The position numbers were made by a program, and so were the translations under genes. Positions 29,394 to 37,874 of a DNA stretch of 64,000 nucleotides are shown piece by piece. The notes below the pieces were generated by a model. The model was not told where the DNA came from. It ran no database searches and saw only the letters and a program-made list of their open reading frames with translations. The stretch is from Streptomyces ferrugineus (GTDB lineage: Bacteria > Actinomycetota > Actinomycetes > Streptomycetales > Streptomycetaceae), in NCBI RefSeq assembly GCF_015160855.1, contig NZ_CP063373.1, positions 6,076,001 through 6,140,000 on the forward strand, written 5' to 3'. Position 1 is the stretch's first letter. Each line of letters begins with the position of its first letter.

Positions 29394-29882
29394 TCAGGCC
29401 CGCAGCCACTCGGTGACCACGACCTCCCCGCCGGTCCGCAGCCGCAGGGCGAACGGGCCGGTGGGCGGTGCGTCGCTGGTGAAGCGGCCCATGTCGTCGG
29501 CGTCGACCGACATGGCCGTCTGCGGTCCGCCGAGCACCTCGATCCGCGCCTGCTGCGGCGGCAGCACCTGCCCCATCAGACCCTGCGCGGTCACCTCCAC
29601 GTCGACGGTCACCTCGCCCGCGCGGAAGGTCAGCATCCGCGGCACGTCCGTGGCCCCCCTGACCGGAATGGCGTCCACCACCGAGTCGAAGGTCAGCTCG
29701 GCGATGCGGGCGTCGAGGTCGTGCAGGGCGAACGCCTCGACGGCGAGCTGCCTGAGCTGGGGCGGCACGGGGTCGAGGATGGCCGCCGCCTGGCGCAGTT
29801 CCTCCTCCAGCAGTTCGACGTCGAACCCGTCGTCGTCGAAGGGTTCCTCGTCCGTCGCCTCGTCGTGCATGTCGTCGTTCAC
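29394..29882 (-). CDS. Small acidic protein with C-terminal beta-sandwich, partner of the sigma factor
   Basis: 162 residues from GTG 29882, overlapping the sigma-factor stop as GTGA. The N-terminus is very acidic (DDMHDEATDEEPFDDDG). The middle has the helical segment DPVPPQLRQLAVEAFALHD followed by LDARIAELTFDS. The C-terminal 80 residues alternate strands and turns like a carboxypeptidase-regulatory-like beta-sandwich. From memory, proteins of this kind often sit next to sigma factors and CHAT proteins in actinobacteria. No enzymatic motif or transmembrane segment is visible. I infer an adaptor or anti-sigma-like role from the coupling, not from homology to a characterised protein. Confidence 0.7.
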   Translation of the reverse strand: MNDDMHDEATDEEPFDDDGFDVELLEEELRQAAAILDPVPPQLRQLAVEAFALHDLDARIAELTFDSVVDAIPVRGATDVPRMLTFRAGEVTVDVEVTAQGLMGQVLPPQQARIEVLGGPQTAMSVDADDMGRFTSDAPPTGPFALRLRTGGEVVVTEWLRA

Positions 29883-30454
29883 AGCGCTCCCCGTGCGTCG
29901 AGTCGGTCCCGGAGTCGGCGCAGACAGCGCTGGCGCAGCGGCCCGATGCTGCCCACGGCGATGCCCAGTGCGGCGGACACCTCCTGGTAGCTGGGCGGCG
30001 GCGAGGCCATCAGCACCCGCAGCAACTGGCGGCAGCGTTCGCCGAGTTCCTCGAACTCCTGCCACATCCAGCGAATGCGCTCCGACTCGGCGGCGGCCTC
30101 CTCGGAGTCCAGGACCGACTGCTCGGGCGTGCGGTCCTCGCTGACCCGGTCGAGCAGTTGCGGATCGTTCGTGACGGTCAGCCGCCTCAGGCTCTTGAGG
30201 ACCTTCAGGCACTCGTGCCGTGCGGTGCTCGCGAGCCACGAACCGGCCTTCTCGGGTTCGCGGATGCGCCCGAGGTGCTGAGCGAAGCGGAACCAGACGG
30301 TCTGGTACACCTCGTGCGCGTCGGCGTCCCCCAGCCGGTGCGCGCGCACGACGGACCACACCAGCGGGCTCAGCCCTTCCACGAGCGCTTTCCAGGCCGC
30401 CGCGTCCCCGTCGACGGCGGACTGGACCAACGCACCGACATCTGCACGGTCCAC
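29879..30454 (-). CDS. Sigma-70 family RNA polymerase sigma factor (ECF-like)
   Basis: 191 residues from GTG 30454, chosen because GAGGGGTGGG lies at good spacing. An upstream ATG at 30517 overlaps the S8 protease stop as ATGA and would add 21 residues. Region 2 spans about 5-90 (LVWSVVRAHRLGDADAHEV, then VWFRFAQHLGRI). Region 4 lies near the C-terminus (EVSAALGIAVGSIGPLRQR), a helix-turn-helix that binds the -35 element. It probably directs polymerase to a small set of promoters, perhaps of this protease locus. It is followed by the acidic small protein, which could control it. Confidence 0.9.
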   Translation of the reverse strand: MDRADVGALVQSAVDGDAAAWKALVEGLSPLVWSVVRAHRLGDADAHEVYQTVWFRFAQHLGRIREPEKAGSWLASTARHECLKVLKSLRRLTVTNDPQLLDRVSEDRTPEQSVLDSEEAAAESERIRWMWQEFEELGERCRQLLRVLMASPPPSYQEVSAALGIAVGSIGPLRQRCLRRLRDRLDARGAL

Positions 30455-30513
30455 AGTCCCACCCCTCGTGTACGGCAAGTCATCGTACGCCGCGGAGGGG
30501 ATGGTTCCGACCC

Positions 30514-31947
30514 TCATGACCGAGGAGCCGGGGGTGTGACGGCGGCAGGACGCCAGGTGGCGGGGCGGAGCGCCGGAACGTGCGCCCCCCGCACCTCCGC
30601 GTACCCGGAGTGCGCCGCGAGCATCTTGTACCGGGCGACGCGCGGGTCGCTCTCCTGCTGCGCGGTCATGTGGGCGGCGATCAGGCCGGCGACGAGCGGG
30701 GTGGAGAACGAGGTGCCGCTCCAGTGCGCGACCCCCTCGAACATCACCTGGTCCGGCTTGGCGTTGCCGCCCTCCTCGCTCAGCACACCGGTGTGGCGCG
30801 GGGACTGGCAGGTGCAGGCGTAGCCGAAGCCGTAGCGGCAGGCGTCGTAGGTGGAGTGCCGGTAGACGTACGGCACGGGCGCGTCGAAGCCGGTGAGGAC
30901 GCCGGTGAGGCGCTCGCCGGGCGCGTACACCTTCACCCAGGGGCCGTGGTTGCTGAAGCAGGCGCCGAACTCGCCGTCGGTGCGCAGGGCGCCGACCGAC
31001 ACCACGGCGTCCTGGTAGTCGGGCAGGTCGGCGTAGGCGGCGGGCCAGAACGGCGTGGCGCTGCCGTTGTTGCCGGCCGCCGCAACCAGCAGGGTGCGCT
31101 GTTCCCGCAGCTCCCGCATGAAGGCCTCGACGCCGAGCAGGCCGTCGGTGCGGCCGTTGGCGGTGCCGGCGGAGAGGCTGAGGATGTCGGGCCAGCCGCC
31201 GTCGACGGCCTCGAAGAGCTTCTCGCCGAACTCGGACTCGAGGATGGCGCCCGCGTCGGTGAGGCTGTTGCGGACCGTGACGTCGGTGTTGGGCGCGACG
31301 GCGGCGACGAGCCCGGCGATGAACGTGCCGTGGCCGACGTACTCCTGGAGGATGCCCTGGTCGTCGCACTCCCTGAGCTGGGCGTCGCCCTCGGTGTGGG
31401 CCAGCAGCGGGTGGGACCGGTAGTCGTGCATGAGGCCGGTGTCGACGACGAGGACGCCGACGGCGGTGTCCGCGTCGTAAGTGCCCTCGGCCGCCGCGGG
31501 GTTGAGTCCCTCGGCGCGCCGGGCGGGCGCGGGCTCGTCGCCGGGGCAGGAGTTGACGCCGCCCGTGATCCCCACGAGGTGGTTGCGGCTGACCAGCCGC
31601 CGTCCGGCCCGGCCCTCCGTCTCCCGCAGCGCGCGCAGGGCGTGCGCCACGGTGCGGTCGCCGCTGCGGTCGCCCTCGCCGGGGTCGCCGACCTTGATGC
31701 GGGTGATGCCCGAGCGGTTGGTCTGCGGACCCGCGCGGCGCACATTGTCCTGAACCAGGTCGGGCTCGGCGGTGAAGTGCGCCCGTACGGTGTCCTCGAC
31801 GAGGCGAGCGTCGTCACCGTCGCGGACCAGCACATAGCCCTTCTCGTAGATGAACTCGGCCGAGTCGTCCGGTCCCATCGCGAGCGGGACGTCGGGCATG
31901 GAGCGCTGGATCAGCTCGAACTGCTCGTGGAATCGCTGTGGTGCCAT
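30514..31947 (-). CDS. Cytoplasmic S8 (subtilisin-like) serine protease
   Basis: 477 residues from ATG 31947 with AGGGGGAGGA upstream. The catalytic triad is present: Asp in VLVVDTGLM (about 169), His in YVGHGTFIAGL (about 205) and Ser in SGTSFSTPLVAG (about 413). There is no signal peptide and no typical I9 propeptide. Instead, an N-terminal 150-residue region (AEFIYEKGYVLVRDGDDARL) of unknown fold precedes the protease, so it should act inside the cell. A Cys-rich insert, YDACRYGFGYACTC, lies in the catalytic domain. It is the first gene of the S8-sigma-small protein set and is divergent from the CHAT gene, which suggests joint regulation. Confidence 0.92.
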   Translation of the reverse strand: MAPQRFHEQFELIQRSMPDVPLAMGPDDSAEFIYEKGYVLVRDGDDARLVEDTVRAHFTAEPDLVQDNVRRAGPQTNRSGITRIKVGDPGEGDRSGDRTVAHALRALRETEGRAGRRLVSRNHLVGITGGVNSCPGDEPAPARRAEGLNPAAAEGTYDADTAVGVLVVDTGLMHDYRSHPLLAHTEGDAQLRECDDQGILQEYVGHGTFIAGLVAAVAPNTDVTVRNSLTDAGAILESEFGEKLFEAVDGGWPDILSLSAGTANGRTDGLLGVEAFMRELREQRTLLVAAAGNNGSATPFWPAAYADLPDYQDAVVSVGALRTDGEFGACFSNHGPWVKVYAPGERLTGVLTGFDAPVPYVYRHSTYDACRYGFGYACTCQSPRHTGVLSEEGGNAKPDQVMFEGVAHWSGTSFSTPLVAGLIAAHMTAQQESDPRVARYKMLAAHSGYAEVRGAHVPALRPATWRPAAVTPPAPRS

Positions 31948-32056
31948 GGCGTGTCCTCCCCCTGAGGCGACGTTCTTCAGTCAGAGCCGTGGGGCCGGCG
32001 TTTGATACAGCGCCAAACCCGTGTGGCACGGTTCCGAGGCAACTACCATCCGTGGA

Positions 32057-34663
32057 GTGACAGCGGGAAGCGACTCGGTTCTCGAACTGCTGCCGATGGT
32101 GTTCGCCGCCCCGAACGACGCGCTGGCGAGGGCGGAAGGGGTGCTCGACGCCGATCCGTCGCCGTTGCACGCCTCCGTCGCCCATCAGGTGATCGGCATC
32201 TGGCAGCGGGACTGGGGCGACATGCGCATCGCCCTCCATCATCTGCGGCGCGCCCGGGACTTCGCGGCACGCGCGGAGTCGGCCGACCGGGAGGCGGATG
32301 TCCTGGCGGCGCTCGGGGTCGCGTTGGTGCATGCGGGGCGCACTCAGCAGGGGCTCGCCGCGCTGGAGCGCGGGATCGAGCGCGGCAGCGGACACACCCG
32401 CGCCCGGGTGCTGTTCCGCCGGGCCTACGCCCGCTGGGTCCTGGGCCGGCACCGGGAGGCGCTGGAGGACGTACGCCGGGCGATACCCGTGCTGCGGCAG
32501 GTGGACGACGTCATCTGGACGGCGCGGGCGCTGACCCTGCGGGCCACCGTGCATCTGACGCTGGGCGCGGTGGACCGGGCGGACGCCGACTTCACGGCAG
32601 CGGAGGCGCTGTGGGACACCACGGGCCAGGAGCACGACAAGGCCGACGCGGTGGAGAGCCGGGGGCTCGCGGCGTTCCGGTCGGGCGACATCCCGGTGGC
32701 GCTGCGGCTGCTGGACGAGGCCGAGGAGCGGTACGCCAAGCTCGGCACGCCGACGTTCATGCTCAACATCCGCCGCTGCGAGGTGCTGATGGCCGCCGGG
32801 CTGGCCCCGGAGGCGCTGGCCGAGGCGGACGGGGCGATCGCCGTGCTCGACGGCATCGGCGGCCAGTCCACCCGCAAGGCCGAGCTGCTGCTGGCCGCCG
32901 CGCAGGCCGCCCGCCTCGCGGGTGACGCGCACACCGCGATCGCGCGCGCCGACATGGCCGTGCGCCTGTTCGCCGGGCAGCGGCGCAGCTGGTGGGAGAC
33001 GCATGCCCGGCTGGTGCTGATCGAGGCGCGGGTGGCCGCCGGGCGCAGTTCGGGCCGGCTGGTGGCCGACACGGCGGCGGTCGCCGACCGGCTGGCGTCC
33101 TTCGGCGCCCCGGCCGCGCCGGAGGCGTCGCTGCTCGCCGGCCGGATCGCGCTCACCCTGGGCTGGCGGGCCGACGCCGAGCGGCATCTGGGCGTCGCCG
33201 CCCGCAGCCGGCACAGCGGGCCGCCGCTGGCCCGGGTGACGGGCTGGGCGGCGCAGGCGCTGCGGGCGCGGGCGGCCGGTTCGGGGCGGGGCGTCCTGGA
33301 GGCCTGCCGGCGCGGCCTGGACGTGCTCGACGCCCACCGGATGACGCTGGGCGCCTCGGAGCTGCGTGCCCGCGCCACCGCTCAGGGCGCCGAGCTGGCC
33401 GCGCTGGCCCAGCAGGCCAGCCTCGACTCCGGCAGCCCGCGCCGGCTGCTGGTGTGGAGCGAGCGCTGGCGCAACACCGCGCTGTCGACGCCGCCGACCC
33501 GGCCGCCGGCCGATCCGGAGCTGCAGAGCGACCTGACCGCGTTCCGGGAGATCGCGGCGCGCGCCGAGGAGGCGCGCCGGGACGCCCGTCCGATTCCGGC
33601 GCTGGAGCGCGAGCAGCGGCGCCTGGAGCGCGAGATCCGCTCCCGGACGTTGCACCTGCGCGGCGACACGCCCGGCGACGGCCACCGCTTCGACCCGGTC
33701 CGGCTGCTGCGGCGGCTGGGCGACGACACGCGGCTGGTCGAACTCGCCGTGCTGGACGGGCGGGTGCAGGTGCTGCTGTGCGGGCAGGGGCGGGTGCGCC
33801 GGTTCGAGGCCGGGCTGCTGGCCGAGGCGGAGCGGGAGACCGAGCACGTCCAGGCCGGGCTGCGGCGGCTGGCCCACCCGGGCGCGGAGGGGCGGCTGGC
33901 GGTGGTGGAGGCCGCCGGGCGGCGCCTGGAGGAGTTGCTGCTGGGCCCGGCGGCGGCACGGCTGGGCGACGGTCCGGTCGTGGTCGTGCCGCCGGCCCGG
34001 CTGCACCGGGTGCCGTGGGCGCTGCTGCCGGCGCTGCGGGAGCGGGTGCTCAGCGTGTCGCCGTCGGCCAGCGGCTGGCTGCGCGCCCGGGACACCGAGC
34101 CGCCGCCGGGCGGCCGTCAGGTGCTGGTGCGCGGTCCGGGGCTGGCGACGGGCGGCGCGGAGGTGCCGCACCTGGCCGGACGGTACGGCGGTGCCGTCGT
34201 CCTGGAGCACGCCGAGGCGCGGGTGCCGCGCGTGCTGGAGGAGCTGGACGGAGCCGCGCTGGCCCATATCGCCGCGCACGGCACGTTCCGGGCGGACGGC
34301 CCGTTGTTCTCGTCGCTGCGGATGGCCGACGGGCCGCTGATCGTGCACGACTTCGAGCGCCTGGACCGCAGCCCGTACCGGATCATCCTCTCCTGCTGCG
34401 ACACCGCCCGCTTCGCCTCCGTGGGCGCCGACGAACTGCTCGGCCTGGTGACCGCGCTGCTGCCGCTGGGCACGGCGGGCGTGGTGGCGTGCACGGCTCC
34501 CGTCAACGACGCCGCGGTGGTCCCGCTGATGCTCGCGCTCCACAAGGGTCTCGGCGAGGGCCGCTCCCTTGCGGAGTCCCTGCGCGACGCGCGGGCGGCC
34601 CTGCCGGGGGATGCGCTGCATCGGGCCACGGGGTGGGCGTTCTCGGCGTTCGGGGCGGCGTGA
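32057..34663 (+). CDS. TPR-CHAT protein (caspase-HetF-like protease)
   Basis: 868 residues from GTG 32057. Residues 1-430 form repeated helical pairs of the tetratricopeptide kind (for example READVLAALGVALVHAGRTQQ). A charged coil follows, then a C-terminal CHAT domain (about 570-868) with predicted catalytic His in AHIAAHGTF (about 741) and Cys in ILSCCDTARF (about 779-780). CHAT domains are caspase-like peptidases; characterised relatives include TPR-CHAT of type III-E CRISPR and gasdermin-activating proteases. No gasdermin, CRISPR or STAND NTPase is fused here. A TACCAT box ending 7 bases before the GTG suggests a leaderless message. The S8 protease and its sigma factor are divergent neighbours. 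Confidence 0.9.
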   Translation: MTAGSDSVLELLPMVFAAPNDALARAEGVLDADPSPLHASVAHQVIGIWQRDWGDMRIALHHLRRARDFAARAESADREADVLAALGVALVHAGRTQQGLAALERGIERGSGHTRARVLFRRAYARWVLGRHREALEDVRRAIPVLRQVDDVIWTARALTLRATVHLTLGAVDRADADFTAAEALWDTTGQEHDKADAVESRGLAAFRSGDIPVALRLLDEAEERYAKLGTPTFMLNIRRCEVLMAAGLAPEALAEADGAIAVLDGIGGQSTRKAELLLAAAQAARLAGDAHTAIARADMAVRLFAGQRRSWWETHARLVLIEARVAAGRSSGRLVADTAAVADRLASFGAPAAPEASLLAGRIALTLGWRADAERHLGVAARSRHSGPPLARVTGWAAQALRARAAGSGRGVLEACRRGLDVLDAHRMTLGASELRARATAQGAELAALAQQASLDSGSPRRLLVWSERWRNTALSTPPTRPPADPELQSDLTAFREIAARAEEARRDARPIPALEREQRRLEREIRSRTLHLRGDTPGDGHRFDPVRLLRRLGDDTRLVELAVLDGRVQVLLCGQGRVRRFEAGLLAEAERETEHVQAGLRRLAHPGAEGRLAVVEAAGRRLEELLLGPAAARLGDGPVVVVPPARLHRVPWALLPALRERVLSVSPSASGWLRARDTEPPPGGRQVLVRGPGLATGGAEVPHLAGRYGGAVVLEHAEARVPRVLEELDGAALAHIAAHGTFRADGPLFSSLRMADGPLIVHDFERLDRSPYRIILSCCDTARFASVGADELLGLVTALLPLGTAGVVACTAPVNDAAVVPLMLALHKGLGEGRSLAESLRDARAALPGDALHRATGWAFSAFGAA

Positions 34664-34866: not shown

Positions 34867-36717
34867 TCACGCCGACTGCGTGTCCGGCAGTTCCACCAGC
34901 CACGGGAGCGCGCCGCGGTCGCTGGCGCCGAGGCGGGCGTAGGCGCTGTAGAGGTGGTTGCCGACCGTGCGGACGGACAGGGTGAGCTTCTCGGCGATCT
35001 GCCGGTTGCTCAGGCCCTTCGCCGCGAGCGTGACGATCTGCCGTTGACGGACGGTCAGTTCGCCGAGGACCAGTCCGGACAGGGCCGGGGTGCGCGCCCC
35101 CTGGCAGCGGCGGGCCAGGGCGACGGCACGCGTGCGTGAGGTGCGGGCGGCGCGCGGGTCGCGGTGGGCGCGTACGGCCTGGGCGTGCGCCTCCGCCGCG
35201 AAGAGCAGGAAGCCGCGCTCCCGGAGCCGTTCGGCCACCCGGTCGAGGGCCGGGCCGTCGGCGCGGGCGAGGGCGTCGGCGTGCTCGGCGAAGACGCCGG
35301 TCAGGCGGCCCGCGGCAGGCTCGGGGACGCCGAGGCGGACGGCGTCGTAGACGTCATCGCCGACGATCGCCTCGGCCGCCTGGCCGGCCTCGCCGCGGAC
35401 CGCTGCCGGCCGGGTGACCGCCCCACCCCCGTCGGGGCGGCCACCCAGGATCTGGTGCGCGGCGGTCGGGTCGCCCGACTGCACCGCGGCGAGGGCGAGT
35501 TCGCGACGGCAGGACGGGTCGGCGCCGTCGGCCCGCAGCCCCTCCCGCGCCCACGCCGCCGCCTCCCGCAGCTCACCGCGCAGCCGCGCGAACCGGGCGC
35601 GCACGGCCGCGTATCCGGCCGGTACCGGCGCGCCCTCCGCGACCAGCCACTCCCCCACGGGCGTCGGCATCGCCCGTACGTCCGCCCGCTCGATACGACG
35701 GCTCAGCGCGGCCCGCTCGGCGTCGACGGCGGGGCCCCACTCCTCGGGCGTACGGGACAGCCGCCTCGCCCGCAGCCTGCCGGTCGCCGCCCGCAGCACC
35801 GGACCGTGCAGGGGGTGGGCGAGGCGGACGGCGCCCCGGTCGTCGACGTGGACCAGGGCGTCGGCCTCCAGGTGTTCGAGGGCGCGCGGATCGAGCCGGT
35901 CCTGCTCCATGTCCAGCGGCAACGGCTCGGCGAAGGCGAGGCGTTCGAGGATCTCGCGCTGCTCGGGGCAGGGGCGGTCCAGGACGGGTGCGGTGCGCTC
36001 GCGCACGGTCGGTGTCAGCGGCACCGGGCCGCGCCACGCCCATTCGTCGGCGCCCGGGACCCGGCTGAGCAGCCCGCGCTCGCGCACCGCGCCCACCAGG
36101 TCGCGCAGCAGCCTCAGGTCGCCCTGGCACAGGCGGTGCAGCCGGTTGACGGTGAGCGGTTCGAGGCCGGCGCCCGCGGCCTCGGCGGCGAGCAGCAGAG
36201 CCGTCTCCTCGCGGGGCAGCGGCTCCAGGGTGAGGCGGGGCAGGAGTTCGCCGGTCCACAGCCGGGTGATCGCGCCCGGGGCCCGGGCGCCGTCGGCGGT
36301 GACGACCAGGAGACGGGTGCGGCCGTGCACGGCGAGCTGGTGGACCAGGGCGGCCGAGGCGTCGTCGAGCAGATGGGCGTCGTCGACCAGCAGCAGCCGT
36401 ACGCCGGACAGGTGCTGGAACGCGATGTGCAGGGAGGCCGTCTCGGGGACGAGGTGTGCGAACGCGGCGAAGCGGACACGGCGGGTCCCGGGGGTGCCGG
36501 CCACCCGGGCGCAGTCGGTGCCGCGGACGGCCTCGGTGACGAGCCGGGTCTTGCCGCTGCCGGCCGGTCCCGTGATCACGATGCCGTGCCGGCCGGCGCT
36601 CAAGGCGCCCCGGACCAGTTCGAGTTCGTCCTCGCGGCCGGTGAACCGCCACGGCAGTTCCAGGGTCTTCGCGTCGCGTTCGAAAATCGTCACGGCAATA
36701 GGAGCGCCGTGACTCAC
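34867..36717 (-). CDS. LuxR-type transcriptional regulator with ATPase domain
   Basis: 616 residues from GTG 36717 (GTG 36693 possible). The P-loop GPAGSGKT (about residue 50) and a Walker B LLLVDDAH (about 110) show an AAA/STAND-like ATPase. Degenerate helical repeats fill the middle. The C-terminus is a LuxR helix-turn-helix (ELTVRQRQIVTLAAKGLSNR, then QIAEKLTLSVRTVGNHL). It is shorter than the 900-residue LAL/MalT regulators. It is convergent with the CHAT gene and divergent from the metalloprotease gene, only 71 bp away, which makes that gene its likeliest target. Confidence 0.88.
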   Translation of the reverse strand: MSHGAPIAVTIFERDAKTLELPWRFTGREDELELVRGALSAGRHGIVITGPAGSGKTRLVTEAVRGTDCARVAGTPGTRRVRFAAFAHLVPETASLHIAFQHLSGVRLLLVDDAHLLDDASAALVHQLAVHGRTRLLVVTADGARAPGAITRLWTGELLPRLTLEPLPREETALLLAAEAAGAGLEPLTVNRLHRLCQGDLRLLRDLVGAVRERGLLSRVPGADEWAWRGPVPLTPTVRERTAPVLDRPCPEQREILERLAFAEPLPLDMEQDRLDPRALEHLEADALVHVDDRGAVRLAHPLHGPVLRAATGRLRARRLSRTPEEWGPAVDAERAALSRRIERADVRAMPTPVGEWLVAEGAPVPAGYAAVRARFARLRGELREAAAWAREGLRADGADPSCRRELALAAVQSGDPTAAHQILGGRPDGGGAVTRPAAVRGEAGQAAEAIVGDDVYDAVRLGVPEPAAGRLTGVFAEHADALARADGPALDRVAERLRERGFLLFAAEAHAQAVRAHRDPRAARTSRTRAVALARRCQGARTPALSGLVLGELTVRQRQIVTLAAKGLSNRQIAEKLTLSVRTVGNHLYSAYARLGASDRGALPWLVELPDTQSA

Positions 36718-36734
36718 CTCTGATACACGCGTAC

Positions 36735-36753
36735 TTGAGTAGCCCTCGACTCA
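36735..36753. promoter_or_regulatory. Inverted repeat between LuxR and metalloprotease genes
   Basis: TGAGT (36736-36740) and ACTCA (36749-36753), 8 bp apart, form an inverted repeat within the 71-bp divergent promoter. It could be an operator for the LuxR-type regulator. The arms are short, so chance is possible. Confidence 0.3.
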
Positions 36754-36788
36754 GGCGCCCGGCGCGGCCCCACGGCAACCTGTTCGCC

Positions 36789-37874
36789 ATGACCGCTCGC
36801 TACTGCTCCCTCGCGCAGCAGTCGGCGCCCGCCTTCGCACCGGGGCTGGCCGCCGAGCGGCTCAACGCGCTCATCAGCGGGCACCGGATGTGGGTCAACG
36901 GCACGGTGCTGCACTACTACTTCTTCGACCGGGACTCCGACGCGTCCTCGATCCCGGACCCGGAGACCGGCGAGACCCGGCGCGTCGCGTGGGCCGGCAG
37001 CAAGGAGCAGCAGGACGTCGTACGCGAGTGCTTCCAGGAGTGGCAGGGCCTCGGCATCGGGCTGTCGTTCCAGGAGGTGCGGGACCGGTCGGAGGCCGAG
37101 CTGCGGATCGGGTTCCAGCTCGGCGACGGGTCCTGGTCGACGGTGGGCAAGGACTCGCTGCGGATCGGCCTGAACGAGCGCACCATGAACTTCGGCTGGG
37201 ACCTGACGGTGCCCGGCGAGCGCGGGACGGCGCTGCACGAGATCGGGCACGCGCTCGGCATGCTGCACGAGCACCAGAGCCCGTTCGCCGGCATCCACTG
37301 GGACGACGAGGCCGTGTACGCCGATCTGGCGGGCCCGCCGAACTTCTGGAGCCGGGACAAGACGTTCTTCAACATCCTGCGCAAGCTCGATCCGAACGAG
37401 GTCAACGGTTCCGTCTGGGACCCGCACTCGATCATGGAGTATCCCTTCTCGGACGGGCTGATCCTGGAGCCGGAGCAGTTCCGTGCGGGCCTGAACCCGC
37501 CGGGTGTGCTGTCCAGGGCCGACAAGGAGTTCGTCCGCCGCTGGTACCCGCCCACCGAGGCCCCGGGACCGCGTGAGCTGGTGCCCTTCCGCTCGGTGCC
37601 GCTGCGGCTCGGCCCGGCCGAGCAGGCCGACTTCGTCATCGAGCCGCCGGAGACCCGCGAGTACACGCTGGGCACCTTCGGCGACAGCGACACGGTCGTG
37701 GTGATCTTCGAGGAGCGGGACGGCGAGCCCCGCTACCTCACCGCCCAGGACGACGGGGGCACCGCGCACAACGCCACGCTCAAGGCCCGTCTGGTCAAGG
37801 GCCGCCGCTACTTCGTCCGGGTGCGCCTGTACGCCAACTGGGGTTCGGGGGAGACAGCGGTCATGTGCTGGTGA
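36789..37874 (+). CDS. Astacin-like (M12) zinc metalloprotease without signal peptide
   Basis: 361 residues from ATG 36789; no clear ribosome-binding site. The zinc site HEIGHALGMLHEH near residue 150 has the metzincin form HExxHxxGxxH, and the Met-turn appears as HSIMEYPF near residue 218. The preceding region (DVVRECFQEWQGLGIGLSFQE) is typical of the catalytic domain. A C-terminal beta-rich domain of about 110 residues follows. Most bacterial M12A proteases are secreted, but no signal peptide is seen here, so it may act in the cytoplasm or leave by another route. With the S8 and CHAT proteases it makes three unrelated proteases within 8 kb. Confidence 0.87.
   Translation: MTARYCSLAQQSAPAFAPGLAAERLNALISGHRMWVNGTVLHYYFFDRDSDASSIPDPETGETRRVAWAGSKEQQDVVRECFQEWQGLGIGLSFQEVRDRSEAELRIGFQLGDGSWSTVGKDSLRIGLNERTMNFGWDLTVPGERGTALHEIGHALGMLHEHQSPFAGIHWDDEAVYADLAGPPNFWSRDKTFFNILRKLDPNEVNGSVWDPHSIMEYPFSDGLILEPEQFRAGLNPPGVLSRADKEFVRRWYPPTEAPGPRELVPFRSVPLRLGPAEQADFVIEPPETREYTLGTFGDSDTVVVIFEERDGEPRYLTAQDDGGTAHNATLKARLVKGRRYFVRVRLYANWGSGETAVMCW

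Follow-up and report, generated by a model that had tools for sequence, protein, structure and literature searches.

The window analysed here, a stretch of 64,000 nucleotides from Streptomyces ferrugineus (NZ_CP063373.1, positions 6,076,001 to 6,140,000), contains four linked genes which encode an S8 (subtilisin-like) protease, an ECF-type sigma factor, a small protein and a divergent TPR-CHAT protease. From its sequence, the locus would be an ECF54-type switch in which cytoplasmic proteases control a sigma factor, a reading to which a probability of about 0.5 is given. In front of the S8-sigma-small operon lies a conserved promoter-like element, TGTATCA-N16-CTC, which is very probably used by this sigma factor and which recurs before the regulatory gene absR2 and before a repeat-bearing, RNA-like sequence elsewhere on the chromosome. 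The gene set itself is not new; what is new is the likely output of the sigma factor, in other words the element, absR2 and the small RNA.

The four-gene locus and its conservation

The preliminary description of this DNA had proposed an operon of protease, sigma factor and small protein with a divergent TPR-CHAT gene, and the four open reading frames (ORFs) are confirmed as intact and linked in this arrangement (Table 1). The operon junctions are likewise borne out, each being a four-base overlap, ATGA at 30517-30514 between S8 and sigma and GTGA at 29882-29879 between sigma and the small protein. A Pfam scan identifies the S8 domain (PF00082, E 5.5e-18), the sigma factor (PF04542, E 9e-10), the CHAT domain (PF12770, E 5.8e-25) and TPR_12 (E 7.6e-12). 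The sigma factor also matches TIGR02937 over residues 41-206 (E 2.8e-20) and, as its length and alignment indicate, comprises regions 2 and 4 without a long regulatory extension. For CHAT, GTG 32057 is a better start than 32021, since relatives align from there and the preceding bases, CACTACCAT, are conserved in Streptomyces.

The active sites of both proteases are preserved. The His and Cys of the CHAT protease, which had been described as intact, are indeed so and recur in 93 of 98 relatives, the region being unaligned in the remaining five, while the S8 triad and the accompanying asparagine are kept in all 94 aligned relatives. With its catalytic triad and a predicted inhibitory pro-domain, the S8 protein has the features of a subtilisin zymogen. 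Against solved chains, the CHAT profile matches 8rot_B (E 1.6e-10) and, weakly, 7x8a/8d9f (E 5e-5), the latter being chains which we take to be Csx29.

Table 1. Positions of the genes and putative control elements in the window.
Feature	Position	Strand	Remarks
Small protein, 162 aa	29394..29882	-	Helical N-terminal half and Ig-like beta-sandwich (predicted), no cysteine; proposed soluble sigma inhibitor or adaptor
ECF-type sigma factor, 212 aa, regions 2 and 4	29879..30517	-	Probably group ECF54
S8 (subtilisin-like) protease, 477 aa	30514..31947	-	D169/H206/S413 and N293 intact; predicted pro-domain at about residues 36-126
Promoter-like element TGTATCA-N16-CTC(T)	31983..32009	-	Before the S8-sigma-small operon; putative sigma target
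TACCAT, conserved, just 5' of the CHAT start	32044..32049	+	May be the -10 of a leaderless promoter of housekeeping type
TPR-CHAT protease, 868 aa	32057..34663	+	H741/C781 intact
absR2, LuxR-family regulator, SCO6993 counterpart	34867..36693	-	GTG 36693 taken as start, which lies 34 bases into the element
Promoter-like element TGTATCA-N16-CTC(C)	36701..36727	-	Before absR2
absR1, SCO6992 counterpart	36735..37874	+	Divergent neighbour; element absent before absR1 in 28 Streptomyces loci

Loci for comparison were chosen by the small protein alone, the partner genes being looked for afterwards. Among 199 Streptomyces genomes 63 were positive, and 40 of the 63 places were fetched with wide flanks, the locus of the window being additional to these. 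A survey of 296 genomes sampled across the phylum gave the small protein in 24, five of them Streptomyces (the present genome included), and 20 of the 21 places outside the genus were fetched (G294:C7 was left out). A third set of 48 named loci brings the non-Streptomyces total to 68, in which one contig is counted twice (L066 and L117); some of the missing partners in the counts are due to contig ends.

The four families, whose co-occurrence the preliminary description had suggested counting, are found together far beyond chance. The complete set is present in all 40 Streptomyces loci, where it occupies one conserved chromosomal place beside absR2 and absR1. In the 48 named loci a sigma gene lies within 1 kb in 46, S8 within 9 kb in 41 and CHAT in 43, with five having neither protease; in the phylum sample, 19 of the 20 loci were confirmed, with sigma in 16, S8 in 10, CHAT in 11 and neither protease in eight. 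Given that the present genome (a single contig of 9.96 Mb) contains two CHAT and 16 S8 genes in total, finding the partners beside the small-protein gene in most loci is more than chance would give. Moreover, the order is maintained, in that the small-protein gene comes directly after sigma, on one strand with it, in 96 of 102 pairs, and S8 and CHAT stand head to head in 39/40 Streptomyces loci, 37/41 named loci and 7/10 of the phylum-sample loci which have both. In L120, L146, L152, L156 and L162 the sigma and small-protein genes are convergent, and the latter lies 3' of CHAT on the same strand.

The promoter-like element and its putative targets

In the S8-CHAT intergenic region of Streptomyces the sequence TGTATCA-N16-CTC is conserved, reading towards S8. 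The preliminary description had suggested looking for sigma-dependent promoters, and these promoter-like sites suit a dedicated sigma factor. In the form ending CTC(C/T) the element occurs 56 times in the 40 Streptomyces loci, whereas five shuffles give 0.4 on average, and every occurrence lies before S8 (37) or absR2 (19). With any base allowed after CTC, a perfect site precedes 39 of 40 S8 genes and 29 of 31 absR2 genes, the others having a single mismatch; before the CHAT (40), absR1 (28) and FGase (36) genes of these loci no site has fewer than two mismatches. The spacing between the boxes is 16 in 68/68 Streptomyces sites, where 12-18 was allowed, and the start codon falls at +34 in 12 of 14 absR2-type sites, which would make it a leaderless start. 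It is the invariant spacing together with the position of the start codon that gives the element a two-box promoter geometry.

The second candidate target lies on the other side of CHAT, where the neighbours in the window match the NCBIfam families AbsR2 and AbsR1, as they do in most of the Streptomyces loci fetched. The longest absR2 ORF (34867-36717) begins inside the element, and the real start is probably the GTG at 36693. The annotated start of SCO6993, the absR2 gene of Streptomyces coelicolor (SCO6992 being absR1; PMC9705864, PMC9628970, available parts), may be misplaced likewise; in the deletion primer for SCO6993 given in the latter, TGTATCA begins 16 bases before the annotated ATG. 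The functional unit probably does not end with the four genes and extends to absR2, as far as position 36727.

Per-genome counts, complete over the Streptomyces genomes, follow the cluster. All 63 cluster-positive genomes contain a site (mean 2.48), compared with 73 of 136 cluster-negative genomes (mean 0.89; p 8e-18). absR2 was found in only one of the 50 cluster-negative genomes in which it was sought, G001, an assembly that is 79% complete and in which CHAT residues 387-868 lie on a contig beside AbsR2 with the element.

A third recurrent site has no protein gene behind it. It is followed instead by CGGGG boxes, 4 to 16 in number and for the most part ACGGGGGA, and by an end hairpin, a sequence which, from these features, is presumably transcribed and apparently represents an undescribed small RNA family. 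A covariance model built from 12 sequences finds matches in 80 of the 199 genomes, 28 of them strong copies (above 60 bits). Of these 28, 27 are in cluster-positive genomes (p 6e-15), and the 28th is in the incomplete G001 with its part of the cluster; once the 12 training genomes are set aside, 15 of 16 genomes with a strong copy are cluster-positive (p 8e-9). Shared descent may lie behind part of the associations of RNA and element with the cluster. In the main stem of the hairpin both sides change in 12 of 13 pairs, and none of 500 shuffles reaches the overall score, the alignment having been fitted to the model, which biases it towards covariation. Six RNA loci gave no Rfam match at the gathering score, the copy of the present genome (L207) not being among the six. 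That copy, which has TGTATCA-N16-CTCA, is situated between convergent genes at C1:6465771-6465911, some 326 kb away from the window.

Beyond Streptomyces, the 68 loci contain 26 element matches in 22 loci, where five shuffles give 0.8. The element lies 35-41 bases upstream of the sigma start in L075, L140 and L154, before S8 or small ORFs in L116, L121 and L120, before a trypsin/NAL1-like protease in L073 and before a BTAD-type regulator in L162. Eight further sites in Nocardioides-type loci precede a family of proteins of 98-144 aa (MTWNETHxRTRIIREVE...), which stands behind the element and divergent from sigma in L153, L154, L157, L158, L159, L161 and L163, and of which the L154 copy has no Pfam match. 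No convincing gene follows several sites (e.g. L057, L061, L072, L141, L145, L148); in L141, L145 and L148 the element is 3' of the small-protein gene and faces back towards it, as though it drove an antisense transcript.

Proposed mechanism and alternatives

In the mechanism proposed here the CHAT protease, expressed from a separate promoter, would be the likely sensor, with its TPRs receiving the signal. The S8 protease would be synthesised in zymogen form, carrying a subtilisin-type pro-domain, and then activated. Meanwhile the small protein, encoded at the anti-sigma position after the sigma gene, would hold the sigma factor inactive until cleaved by CHAT and/or S8, both cleaver and target being putative. 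The sigma factor so released would read TGTATCA-N16-CTC at its own operon, giving positive feedback, and would also induce absR2, encoding a repressor of antibiotic regulators, and the ACGGGGGA-repeat small RNA.

Two published observations agree with this mechanism. Antibiotic production rises when SCO6993 is deleted, and the product of that gene binds the actII-ORF4 and redD promoters (PMC9628970, available part); expression of SCO6995 is reported to inhibit antibiotics (PMC2936110, as 'data not shown' there). SCO6995 is described as a putative intracellular serine protease and SCO6996 as a sigma factor, and on account of these descriptions and the gene order they would be the counterparts of S8 and sigma, respectively. 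Now that there is a candidate promoter, with targets of three kinds and a connection to a repressor of antibiotics, a protease-to-sigma cascade is open to direct testing, and the cascade would offer an explanation for the drop in antibiotics on overexpressing a cytoplasmic protease.

The role of the small protein has an even chance of being that of a sigma inhibitor relieved by proteolysis, an assignment drawn from the position of its gene directly after sigma and from the precedent of Csx30. The protein has no match among Pfam or NCBIfam models, and some homologues are named 'Carboxypeptidase regulatory-like'. Its structure model (mean predicted local distance difference test score 76.0, predicted template-modelling score 0.48) has helices at residues 22-35 and 41-69 followed by a beta-sandwich at 82-156. 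The label 'acidic' in the preliminary description fits the N-terminus, the C-terminal half being the predicted sandwich. A Foldseek search with the model returned nothing at E 0.001 or better, and no Csx30 is among the matches of the small-protein profile to solved chains up to E 10.

Several observations weigh against the switch as proposed. The small protein resembles no known anti-sigma factor, either in the profile search of solved chains or in the fold search, and no natural fusion of sigma and small protein is found in the loci examined. In the phylum sample, L056, L057, L058 and L071 have sigma and the small protein with S8 and CHAT not within reach, so that the proteases are not always nearby, while L060, L067 and L072 have the small-protein gene without an adjacent sigma. 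As for the element, 46 of the 68 non-Streptomyces loci are without an exact copy. In the present genome the exact element occurs three times and the backwards control twice, a number no higher than the control gives, and it is the positions alone that are telling here; two of the three copies are those before S8 and absR2. The backwards control is, moreover, slightly more frequent in cluster-positive Streptomyces genomes (2.08 vs 1.61, p 0.016). Finally, SCO6995 transcription is AdpA-dependent (PMC2936110), which means that the sigma factor is not the sole input to S8.

The main alternative is that S8 or CHAT degrades the sigma factor directly, with the small protein as a handover adaptor, in which case a signal would block the protease. 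It is judged rather unlikely, but has points in its favour: such degradation is what the available text of PMC8999054 proposes for ECF54, the sharing of an operon by S8 and sigma behind the element would provide negative feedback, and the small protein resembles no anti-sigma factor in the searches described above. It is at odds with the antibiotic phenotypes, since S8 overexpression is reported to lower antibiotics and AbsR2 represses them; if sigma raises absR2, S8 seems to raise sigma activity. This argument takes AbsR2 to be the route and SCO6995 to be the S8 gene.

That the element is instead an operator of another regulator, such as AbsR2 or AdpA, appears improbable. AbsR2 does bind its own promoter region (PMC9628970, available part), and AdpA affects SCO6995 transcripts; however, the published AbsR2 sites, at -144 to -131 and -54 to -37, do not coincide with TGTATCA, and the fixed spacing and start-codon position described above fit the geometry of a two-box promoter. 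In L075, L140 and L154, loci in which absR2 homologues were not searched for, the element likewise precedes the sigma gene, a further point against an operator.

Least probable of all is a phage-defence or cell-death module with CHAT as caspase-like executioner and sigma and S8 as its regulators, defence and cell death having been raised in the preliminary description: CHAT proteases do act in defence elsewhere, and conflict systems that combine a caspase with an ECF sigma factor, related to the present set, have been described (PMC8195603, available part), but PADLOC gives no match for the small protein, sigma or CHAT and only a generic subtilase model with weak IetS matches for S8, and such a role finds no support in the conserved place beside absR2/absR1 in Streptomyces or in the sites, which precede an antibiotic repressor gene and the putative small RNA. 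What stands of that description is the co-occurrence, the intact active sites and the promoter-like sites; of the three outcomes it had named as refuting it, two were looked into and neither was found.

Relation to known systems

The grouping of genes is already known as ECF54, for which proteolytic control has been proposed; in the available text of PMC8999054 it is likewise an actinobacterial ECF sigma factor whose gene neighbourhood includes subtilase, CHAT and 'carboxypeptidase' proteins. The review bases its model on Geodermatophilus amargosae, a genome which gives one strong match to the present sigma profile (216 bits, the next being 53), at cluster L156. The sigma factor of the window probably belongs to this group. 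A further trait of ECF54 is the lack of a classical zinc-binding anti-sigma factor; in the window the small protein has neither cysteine nor Pfam match, only some of the other neighbours having been scanned. The same text calls these sigma factors 'probably controlled by proteolysis' and gives them no known promoter or target; nor does it contain a regulon, a link to absR2 or a small RNA, or consider inhibition by the small protein. In literature searches on the element, ECF54, the neighbouring genes and Streptomyces small RNAs, no description of the promoter, regulon or RNA was found, although the original ECF classification may contain more. In the available parts of PMC9705864 and PMC9628970 the absR locus is not connected with a sigma factor or proteases, and 'SCO6994' is absent from the latter.

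In the Type III-E CASP/Craspase system Csx29 cleaves Csx30, the inhibitor of CASP-sigma (PMC10028731, available part). The likeness lies in a TPR-CHAT protease, whose His-Cys dyad is present here, an ECF-like sigma factor and a third protein; the difference is that the present locus has a second protease, S8, and a small protein of 162 aa. EACC2-caspase systems similarly bring together a caspase-like peptidase, an ECF sigma factor and a TPR protein in one neighbourhood, S8 not being named in the available text of PMC8195603. Tentatively, and with the odds against it, the locus may be read as a CRISPR-less counterpart of the Csx29-Csx30-CASP-sigma switch, no search for CRISPR having been made in the window. 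In it a soluble inhibitor would hold the ECF sigma factor until the TPR-CHAT protease, together with the subtilisin zymogen, releases it. Its output would be a repressor of antibiotic synthesis and a multi-repeat RNA, with its CGGGG boxes and covarying end hairpin, acting as sponge or G-quadruplex, such that protease signalling sets antibiotic output.

The S8 protein itself varies outside Streptomyces. In L063, L064, L068, L069, L073, L075 and L129 tandem hexapeptide arrays lie between the pro-domain and the catalytic domain, the unit differing by lineage (NPGYQG, NPAYQG, NPAYQA, GGTPYP, GGHPFW, SNPFTR, NPVYLG). The arrays are present in 6/10 phylum-sample S8 loci, one named locus and 0/40 Streptomyces loci, and some units differ by silent changes alone, which suggests selection on the peptide. 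In L066 (10631-12202; the contig of L117) S8 was not found and its place is taken by a trypsin/NAL1-like protein with PHYQ-type repeats of its own, similar to L073:10806-12284, itself preceded by the promoter-like element.

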